Source: Streptomyces sp. NRRL F-5123 (GTDB lineage: Bacteria > Actinomycetota > Actinomycetes > Streptomycetales > Streptomycetaceae). From it: a stretch of 64,000 nucleotides of DNA. Shown here piece after piece: positions 2 through 8,219 of this stretch. Both the position numbers and the translations under genes were made by a program. Position 1 is the stretch's first letter; every line of letters begins with the position of its first letter. The notes under the pieces are model-generated. The model had not been told where the DNA came from. It saw only the letters and a program-made list of their open reading frames with translations, and made no database searches. The stretch covers positions 1-64,000 of the forward strand of contig NZ_JOHY01000021.1 in assembly GCF_000721495.1 (NCBI RefSeq). The letters are read 5' to 3'.

Positions 2-3000
2 CAGCCGGTCCGGTTCGACCAGGCCCTCTCCACCTTGCTGGCGGACGGGCACCGGGTCTTCGTCGAGGTCAGCCCGCACCCCGTCCTCCTCGGCGCGGTC
101 GCGCAAGGCGCCACCGGAGCCGGGGTCACCGATCTCACCGCGGTGGGCACGCTGCGGCGCGACGAAGGAGGACGCAACCAACTGCTCCGCAACGCGGCGG
201 AGTTGTTCACCGCCGGGATCGACGTCGACTGGTCCTCGTGGCTGACCGGCGGGCGGCTCGCCGACCTGCCCACGTACCCATTCCAGCACCGGCGCTACTG
301 GCAGGCGCCCGTCACGGGCACCGACGTGCGCTCCAACGGGCTCGACCCCGTGCGCCATCCGCTGCTCAGCGCCGCGGTGGACCTCGCGGGCACGGGCGAG
401 GTCGTCCTGACCGGCCGTCTCTCCCGGGCCACCCACCCGTGGCTGGCCGACCACGCCGTCCACGGCACCGTCATCCTCCCCGGCACCGCCTTCGTCGAAA
501 TCGCCCTGCACGCCGGTGAGCTGGCGGGCTGCCCCGGCGTACGCGACCTGACGCTGCTCGCGCCGCTGTCCCTGCCCGAACGCGGGGACGTCGACCTCCA
601 GGTGCAGGTGGGCGCCGCCGACGGCACGGGACGGCCGGTGGAGATCCACTCCCGGCGGTACGGCACGGGGGAGTGGACGCAGCACGCCCGCGGCCTCCTC
701 GTCGAGCAGTCCACCCCGCTGTCCGAGGACGCGGGGAAGCTGCTCGGCGCCGCGTGGCCGCCCGCCGGGGCGCGTCCGCTCGACGTGGACGCGCACTACG
801 AGGCCCTGGCCGCCGCCGGGTTGGAGTACGGCCCCGCCTTCCAGGGGCTGTCCGACCTGTGGCGCTCGGACGGCAGCGTGCTCGCCCAGGCCGTTCTGCC
901 CGGGCGGCAGGCCGAGGACGCGACCGCGTTCGGCCTGCACCCCGCGCTGCTCGACGCCGCGCTCCAAGCCGCCGCCGCGGACGCCGCCGACGACACCGGC
1001 CGCGCGGACGGCCGCACCCCGCTGCCCTTCTCCTTCGGCGCCGTCACGCTGCACGGCCGCGGCGCGGGCGGCATCCGGGTCCGCGTCACCGCGACCGGGC
1101 CCGACACCTACACCGTGGAGGCCGCGGACGCTTCCGGGGCGCCGGTCGTACGCATCGACGACCTGCTGGTCCGTTCCGTGACGGCCGCGGACCTCGCCGT
1201 TCCCGAGAGCGGTGAACGGGCGCTGCTCTCCCTGGAGTGGACCGCGGCCGACCTGCCGCCCGCCGTCGCCGGGGACGCCCAGGAGGCGCCCGAACCGACG
1301 CTGCTGCGGGTCCCGGCACCCGCGGCGGACGCGGGCAGCCCGCCGGAGCGCGTCCGCCGCGTCCTCCACGAGACGCTGCACGGGCTGCGGGAGTGGCTGG
1401 CGCGGCCGCTGCCCGCCGGTGCCCGGCTGGCCGTCGTGACCAGCCGGGCCGTACTGACCGGGGCGGAGCGGTCCGGCGCGCCGGTGGATCTCGCCCACGC
1501 CGCCGTGTGGGGCCTGGTGCGGGCGGCCCGCGCCGAGAACCCGGGCCGGATCGTCCTGATCGACACCGAGGGCGCGCAGGGCACCGGCACCGCCGACGAC
1601 GTGCTGCTGGCCGCCGCGCGCTCCGGCGCCCCCGAACAGGCGCTCCGGGCGGGCCGCGTCCACGTCCCGCGGCTGCGCCGCCGCTCCCCGCAGCCGTCCC
1701 GCACGGCGCTCGACGCCCTCGGCACCGGGACCGTGCTGATCACCGGGGGAACGGGCGGGATCGGCGCCCAGGCGGCCCGGCACGCCGCCCGGCTCGGCGT
1801 ACGCCACCTGCTGCTGCTGTCCCGGCGCGGACCCGACGCCGAGGGGGTGCCCGCCCTGCGGGCGGAACTCGCCGCGGCCGGTGCGGAGGTGACGGTGCTG
1901 GCCTGCGACGCGGCCGACCGCGACGCGCTGGAGCTGGCGCTGCGGGCGATACCGGAGGACCGTCCGCTGACCGCCGTCATCCACTCCGCGGGAGTGCTGC
2001 GCGACGGCATCGTCGACTCCATCGACGCCGACGCCCTGGACGCCGTGCTGCGGCCCAAGGTGGACGCCGCCTGGAACCTGCACGAGCTGACGGCCGGTGC
2101 GCCGCTGACCGCGTTCGTCGTCTTCTCCTCGGCCGCCGGTGTCCTCGGTGCGGCCGGGCAGGCCGGCTACGCGGCCGCCAACGCGTTCCTCGACGCGTTG
2201 GCGCAGGACCGGCGGCGTACCGGCGCCGCCGCGCTGTCGCTGGCCTGGGGCCTGTGGTCCGAGGCGACCGGGATGACCGGGCACCTCGCCGAGGCGGACA
2301 TCGAACGGATCAACCGCGGCGGGATCGCCGCGCTCGGCACCGAGCAGGGACTCGCCCTGCTGGACGCGGCACTCGCCGCAGACCCCGCGGCGGCGGGAGC
2401 CGACGAGGCGGTGCTCGTGGCCGCGGCCCTCAACCAGCCCGTGCTGCGCGCCACCGAACCCGGCCTGCTGCCCCCGCTGCTGACCGGGCTGTACCCGCCG
2501 CGCAGGCGCGCCGCCCGCGGCCCGGCCGTACGCGCCGGGGGACCGGTGGTGCCGGCCTCCCGCGACGAGGTCGTCGCCCGGCTGCGCCACCGGTTCGCCG
2601 GCACGATGGGCTTCGCGGCCGGCGAACTCGACGTCTCCGCACCGCTGGTGGGGCAGGGCCTGGACTCGGTGATGGCGATGCAGGTGCGCAGCCTCGTCGA
2701 GACCGACTTCGGCCAGACCCTGCCGATCGCGACGATGTTCAACGCGGCCACCGTCGAGACCGTCGCCGACGCCGTGCTCGCCGCCGCGGCCACCGGCGAC
2801 GGCGGCTCGGCCCCCGCACCCGGTGCGGAACCGGCCGCCACGCCCGTCGGGGAGATCGAGCGCTACCCCGCCACGCGCGACGTCGTGCGGCTGCTGCGGA
2901 CCGAGCGGAGCGACACCCCCGGCGCGACCCACCACGTCGGACTGGCCGTACGCCTCGCCGAGCCGACCACGCGCGACCGGCTGGCCGGGGCGCTCGCCCG

Positions 3001-8219: not shown

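Follow-up and report, generated by a model that had tools for sequence, protein, structure and literature searches.

The window analysed here, a 64-kb stretch of DNA comprising bases 1-64000 of contig C21 in an assembly of 250 contigs, begins with three genes that we interpret, with a probability of about 0.6, as a polyketide release cassette which would load a glyceryl unit, join the polyketide to it as an ester through a condensation (C) domain, release the product reductively and finish it with a hydrolase. This cassette is a further example of a published architecture and not a new machine, and it is intact, well conserved and placed in a clade of its own. Its features are collected in Table 1. 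Together, the three genes resemble the last part of a single operon; protein 2 begins a few bases ahead of the protein 1 stop codon, so the two frames overlap, and the start of protein 3 falls within the stop codon of protein 2 (ATGA overlap). The hairpin behind protein 3 was folded over 71 bases and gave -51 kcal/mol (z = -2.31), with 6 of 200 shuffles folding as well or better, and no T-tract terminator was found at it, 3' of protein 3; it is a possible end of the operon. The TetR gene that follows is itself followed by an MFS transporter gene. Farther along, the window carries a protein of 1404 aa that combines Kelch repeats with carboxypeptidase regulatory-like domains (12712-16926, minus strand), a 659-aa protein with an eCIS_core domain (20104-22083, minus strand) and a Mce-like lipid uptake locus in which three of the scanned genes have MlaD domains, one of them also with Mce4_CUP1 (43838-48568).

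Table 1. Features of the release cassette and its 3' flank, in window positions.
Feature	Position	Strand	Evidence or residues
Protein 1: final PKS module with C and FkbH domains; 5' end lost at contig edge	2..5836	+	profile matches
AT, C-terminal end	2..226	+	residues 1-75; model positions 243-319
DH, HxxxGxxxxP motif intact (HAVHGTVILP)	356..1192	+	residues 119-397
KR, GGTGGIG motif; S and Y present, presumably the active-site residues	1727..2263	+	residues 576-754
First ACP, donor carrier	2579..2776	+	residues 860-925
Condensation domain	2837..4111	+	HHAVSD at residues 1083-1088 (3248-3265)
FkbH domain with N-terminal extension	4202..5788	+	TIGR01686 at 4778-5728
Protein 2: ACP-thioester reductase-tail	5829..8219	+	profile matches
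Second ACP, acceptor carrier; Ser93 in GLSSVD	6030..6209	+	PP-binding, residues 68-127
Thioester reductase; TGATGFLG, Y365xxxK369 (YDKSK)	6438..7364	+	TIGR01746
Conserved protein 2 tail without family, about 200 residues	7584..8216	+	residues 586-796
Protein 3: alpha/beta hydrolase, 377 aa	8216..9349	+	profile match, motifs
G+C-rich hairpin where protein 3 and the TetR gene converge	9353..9386	.	folding
Convergent TetR gene	9395-10084		next gene beyond 9349

Based on Pfam and NCBIfam profiles, the domains of protein 1 are arranged in the order AT tail-DH-KR-ACP-C-FkbH, and protein 2 continues with ACP-reductase. The earlier note had read the order from DH to the reductase, with its coordinates, from the letters of the sequence, and the profile search of both proteins bore it out with scores over the cut-offs. 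The C domain reached 66.3 bits (PF00668 cut-off 30.6), the FkbH domain 363 bits over residues 1593-1909 (curated TIGR01686 cut-off 146.65) and the reductase 244.2 bits (curated TIGR01746 cut-off 213.35). The FkbH domain carries the phosphatase Asp1600 in DGDET and Cys1859 in MSCRVLG, and we take Cys1859 to be the glyceryl acceptor. The same note was also right that the C domain keeps HHxxxD (here HHAVSD) and the FkbH domain DxDxT. Since the last module keeps its DH and KR motifs, an alpha,beta-unsaturated acyl chain is predicted. The contig edge, the third gene and the family-less tail of protein 2 are parts of the picture that were absent from that note.

Because the window begins at a contig end, protein 1 lacks its 5' part. 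The KS and the greater part of the AT were not located among the 36 AT matches in the host genome, nor by comparing nine contigs, whole or in part, with the relatives; the contig matches obtained in this search reflected generic KS or module similarity, and none could be assigned as the missing module.

By sequence, the nearest solved reductase to that of protein 2 is MxaA (4u7w, 3.5e-53), which serves the release of an amino-acid amide in myxalamid biosynthesis, unlike the glycerate ester considered here. For the tail behind the reductase, searches of Pfam and NCBIfam at E<=0.01 gave no match, and it is conserved in 23 of the 23 copies aligned. AlphaFold predicts it, at low confidence (mean pLDDT 61), as rich in beta strands and ending in a helix; Foldseek against the PDB returned 0 matches for this model at E<=0.001. 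The YxxxK motif of the reductase is kept in every one of the best 120 of 486 tail homologues.

The hydrolase encoded by the third gene has Cys130 at the nucleophile elbow (AHCIG; window 8603-8605), together with His336 and the acidic Asp302. In its structural model the mean pLDDT is 61, the ten-residue block means rise to 83-93 over residues 101-150, and Cys130 sits between strand 124-129 and helix 131-141. Scoring of 7997 candidates gave 431 homologues, and in 118 of the best 120 of these the nucleophile is Cys and not Ser, the remaining two having no pattern match. Such a nucleophile may favour acyl transfer or cyclisation over plain hydrolysis of an ester. Three of the best 120 homologues carry the source label 'cholesterol oxidase', and the family may also occur outside the cassette. 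A fusion of the tail and the hydrolase to GMC/cholesterol oxidases was considered and found unsupported, the tail profile having matched cassette proteins only in 101 genomes, at E<=0.001 and with at most 31 candidates scored in each.

Motifs were aligned in 15 clusters, namely the window, 12 of the 15 relative loci (without L011, L017 and L018), the fox-like cluster of Streptomyces sp. 1-11 and the second cluster of Streptomyces sp. DHE7-1, whose C domain is split over two frames and was aligned in part only. The HHxxxD of the C domain, the DxDxT and SCR cysteine of FkbH, the Ser of the ACP, the YxxxK of the reductase and the Cys of the hydrolase are present in 15 of these 15. Thirteen of the 15 relative loci have C, FkbH, reductase and hydrolase in that order, and the other two are incomplete, L011, at the end of a contig, starting within the reductase and L018 consisting of fragments. 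The latter, from Streptomyces anulatus, holds pieces of the reductase and the hydrolase only, apparently a decayed cassette. The hydrolase adjoins the reductase in every examined locus that is not cut short.

A search of 121 genomes of the family gave eight places in seven genomes, including the window and genome G011, and all of the other six places have FkbH upstream and the hydrolase downstream within 1.5 kb. Protein 2 is present in 2 of the 35 genomes of the genus sample. When the best candidates of each genome were scored (up to 14 per genome), the cassette FkbH profile found six places of at least 856 bits in five of 101 family genomes, and all others reached at most 211 bits. The tail profile, which was built partly from the same genomes that it then searched, found six places at E<=0.001 in the same five genomes, with up to 31 candidates scored per genome. 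Within this scope, no genome has the tail without the full-length FkbH domain or the reverse. The host genome has a second FkbH gene on contig C84, a 659-aa frame of the non-cassette type which scored 196.1 bits on the cassette FkbH profile.

The earlier note had called this architecture unusual, and here it has to be corrected, because an equivalent order had been published for foxicin in 2017, a prior description of this kind being one of the refutations that the note itself had named. The foxicin clusters of S. diastatochromogenes Tu6028 and 21 further strains are described as [A]-[ACP-KS-AT-DH-KR-ACP-KS-AT-DH-KR-ACP-C-FkbH]-[PCP-TE], with an esterase (PMC5318452). As in FoxBII, FoxBIII and FoxEI, the window has a PKS ending in ACP-C-FkbH, then a carrier-plus-release protein, then an esterase, which is 378 aa long in fox and 377 aa in the window (PMC5318452). 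The second esterase foxEII, which adjoins in most fox strains, is absent after protein 3 of the window, where the TetR gene stands instead (PMC5318452). Identity to the fox proteins is 73-96% in the published comparison, whereas protein 2 of the window is 57-60% identical to three fox-clade proteins, taken as a proxy for FoxBIII (PMC5318452). The published model proposes that a glyceryl unit derived from bisphosphoglycerate is placed on the carrier of FoxBIII, that the product is released by the TE and that the A domain activates an amino acid; inactivation of foxBII abolishes foxicins, and the acyl chain of foxicin A is described in the available text as amide-linked to an aminoquinone and not as an ester (PMC5318452).

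A tree of the reductase-plus-tail region was built from 133 rows (the 15 clusters and 118 of the best 120 homologues, two being dropped by a motif and length filter) by a quick method with SH-aLRT support only, and it separated three clades with support of 100 each, of which 37 rows group with the window, 68 with the fox-like cluster and 14 with S. coeruleorubidus and S. albireticuli. Reductases labelled S. regalis, S. bicolor, S. curacoi and S. viridochromogenes share the clade of the Streptomyces sp. 1-11 fox-like cluster, their proteins being 82-87% identical to two fox-like copies, and all four species are in the list of foxicin strains (PMC5318452). Since species of the foxicin strain list fall in the fox-like clade, the fox release protein would belong to this reductase family, FoxBIII being judged by proxy. 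The release protein of the Streptomyces sp. 1-11 fox-like cluster (L021, L022) scores 248.6 bits as a thioester reductase, against the cut-off of 213.35. The adenylation gene of the fox-like cluster had its best match at the beginning of a long PKS/NRPS model (529.4 bits), followed by fatty-acid--AMP ligase models (433.5 bits and below, none over cut-off), and reached 147.8 bits on the amino-acid adenylation model, against a cut-off of 317.4. As it scores higher as a fatty-acid--AMP ligase, this gene more likely primes a fatty acid. With a reductase as its release domain and a FAAL-like adenylation gene, this cluster departs from the published foxicin pathway model, which probably needs revision.

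In the mechanism that we favour for the window, the FkbH domain would dephosphorylate 1,3-bisphosphoglycerate and put the glyceryl unit on the ACP of protein 2, as its family suggests. The C domain would then shift the polyketide from the ACP of protein 1 to the glyceryl hydroxyl to form an ester, a step with precedents in BurF and vioprolide. The reductase with NAD(P)H would release an O-acyl-glyceraldehyde, or an acyl-glycerol after a second reduction. The Cys-nucleophile hydrolase might then complete the product through cyclisation, an acyl shift or hydrolysis, and this is the weakest step of the proposal. We know of no reductive release at the FkbH module of the vioprolide line. In vioprolide biosynthesis, FkbH-loaded glycerate is esterified by a C domain, but this happens in module 2 of an NRPS line, whereas the window cassette stands at the chain end (PMC8949500).

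The closest biochemical precedent is BurF of the malleicyprol pathway, which was reconstituted in vitro in 2025; its C domain esterifies the polyketide with a carrier-bound alpha-hydroxy acid, and its terminal reductase yields an aldehyde, after which the butenolide forms (PMC12304814). BurF, known to us by its published description, and the window share the order of ACP, C domain, FkbH part, carrier and reductase, and the window reductase has GxxGxxG and YxxxK (PMC12304814). BurF is one chain in which FkbH is reduced to an N-terminal extension ('NEX') between the C and T domains, whereas the window has a full FkbH domain there; a loss of the phosphatase and acyltransferase parts was considered conceivable by the authors of that study (PMC12304814). 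The acid of BurF is loaded by BurJ and BurH, and its donor is a beta-keto chain, in contrast to the donor predicted for the window from the DH and KR motifs only (PMC12304814). Because that donor is predicted not to be beta-keto, the Knoevenagel-type ring closure of BurF is not directly transferable, and the window would need another route to a ring, which the Cys hydrolase may supply, though with low probability.

Glyceryl loading, ester formation by the C domain and reductive release, as the earlier note had proposed them, thus fit the intact motifs and the BurF and vioprolide precedents, but the proposal meets resistance from the foxicin side and from the C domain itself. The amide linkage of foxicin A has no obvious fit with an ester-forming C domain. 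In a search of solved PDB structures alone, the profile of the cassette C family scored peptide-forming C domains best (linear gramicidin synthase, 2.5e-20) and 4znm at 1e-9, and we counted this large difference against the ester model, since we take 4znm to be SgcC5, an ester-forming C domain. The authors of the BurF study, however, place BurF too, like the majority of ester-forming C domains, with the LCL types (PMC12304814). An amide route, in which the glyceryl unit on the second ACP is made amino-bearing or another amine serves as acceptor, so that the C domain gives an amide and a foxicin-like N-acyl product, would agree with this nearness to peptide-forming domains among solved structures and with foxicin A, the fox-like cassette having the same domains and motifs (PMC5318452). 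We nevertheless regard this route as rather unlikely, because no aminotransferase family was found in the sets of 4, 3 and 10 window genes scanned and the fox-like adenylation gene scores as FAAL-like, well under the amino-acid adenylation cut-off. FkbH domains are, to our knowledge, suppliers of hydroxyls only, which also speaks against an amine on the glyceryl unit.

Another reading dispenses with a lasting glycerate ester, the C domain acting in transfer or gatekeeping while the cassette releases the polyketide as an aldehyde or alcohol. Release by an ACP-reductase without an added unit is known, but idle C and FkbH domains are improbable given that their catalytic residues are kept in 15 of 15 clusters, and this reading is very unlikely in our judgement. 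The domain order might also be an artefact of a mis-joined assembly: a contig edge marks the start of the window, and in the host genome several PKS contigs stop inside AT domains. We attach almost no weight to this explanation, because the frames are open and other species show the same order in records that are long or complete, among them the chromosome of S. coeruleorubidus and a complete plasmid of Rhodococcus. The glycerate ester with reductive release remains the reading that we prefer.

The chain-building part varies among the clusters, with 1 to 5 KS domains, while the terminator is constant. The window-clade relatives with upstream DNA have 3 to 5 KS domains (4 in S. himastatinicus, where one was read in two pieces, 4 in OK074, 5 in F001 and 3 in AV19), whereas the fox-like cluster starts with a FAAL-like gene and 2 KS. 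The front end of S. albireticuli consists of an adenylation domain and 1 KS, and the protein of S. coeruleorubidus has one KS and two DH without AT. For K. purpeofusca, NRRL F-6131, A. paucisporea and the window, the contig breaks off short of the first module. The cassette is also found on plasmid pSID of Rhodococcus pyridinivorans (record 229405-247276; L069/L070), where the PKS comprises a FAAL-like AMP ligase, KS-AT-KR, KS-AT-DH-KR, three ACPs, C and FkbH, and is followed downstream by the reductase, the hydrolase, ccrA and an IS1380 transposase. Identity between pSID and the window is 52% for C-FkbH, 50% for protein 2 and 64% for protein 3, and the motifs are kept. Protein 2 has matches in five Rhodococcus plasmid records, and the details given here come from pSID alone.

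A more specific proposal, which we put forward as a long shot, is that the cassette acts as a portable terminator which closes a ring. The reductase would free an O-(polyenoyl)-glyceraldehyde, the Cys hydrolase with the tail of protein 2 would add its thiol to the enoyl chain, and the alpha-carbon would attack the aldehyde in a manner resembling a Morita-Baylis-Hillman reaction to give a hydroxymethyl butenolide; such a device would cap the chains made by unrelated PKS front ends in several genera of actinobacteria, among them Rhodococcus with its plasmid copy. As products, 5-Alkenyl-3,3(2H)-furanones (E-837 type) and streptoglycerides were both considered and dropped as unsupported, the glycerol of the streptoglycerides being carbon-linked as far as the available text describes it; no paper among the matches listed had streptoglyceride and FkbH together. 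Foxicins are the only product that we found tied to cassette-bearing clusters. Our literature search, which covered few subscription journals, found nothing on this cassette beyond the foxicin, BurF and vioprolide reports (PMC5318452, PMC12304814 and PMC8949500).

The Cys-nucleophile hydrolase and the tail of protein 2 travel with the cassette, and they are directly testable in an assay of the BurF type. Because the front ends vary while the terminator is constant, the cassette would be usable as a genome-mining tag for this class of compounds.
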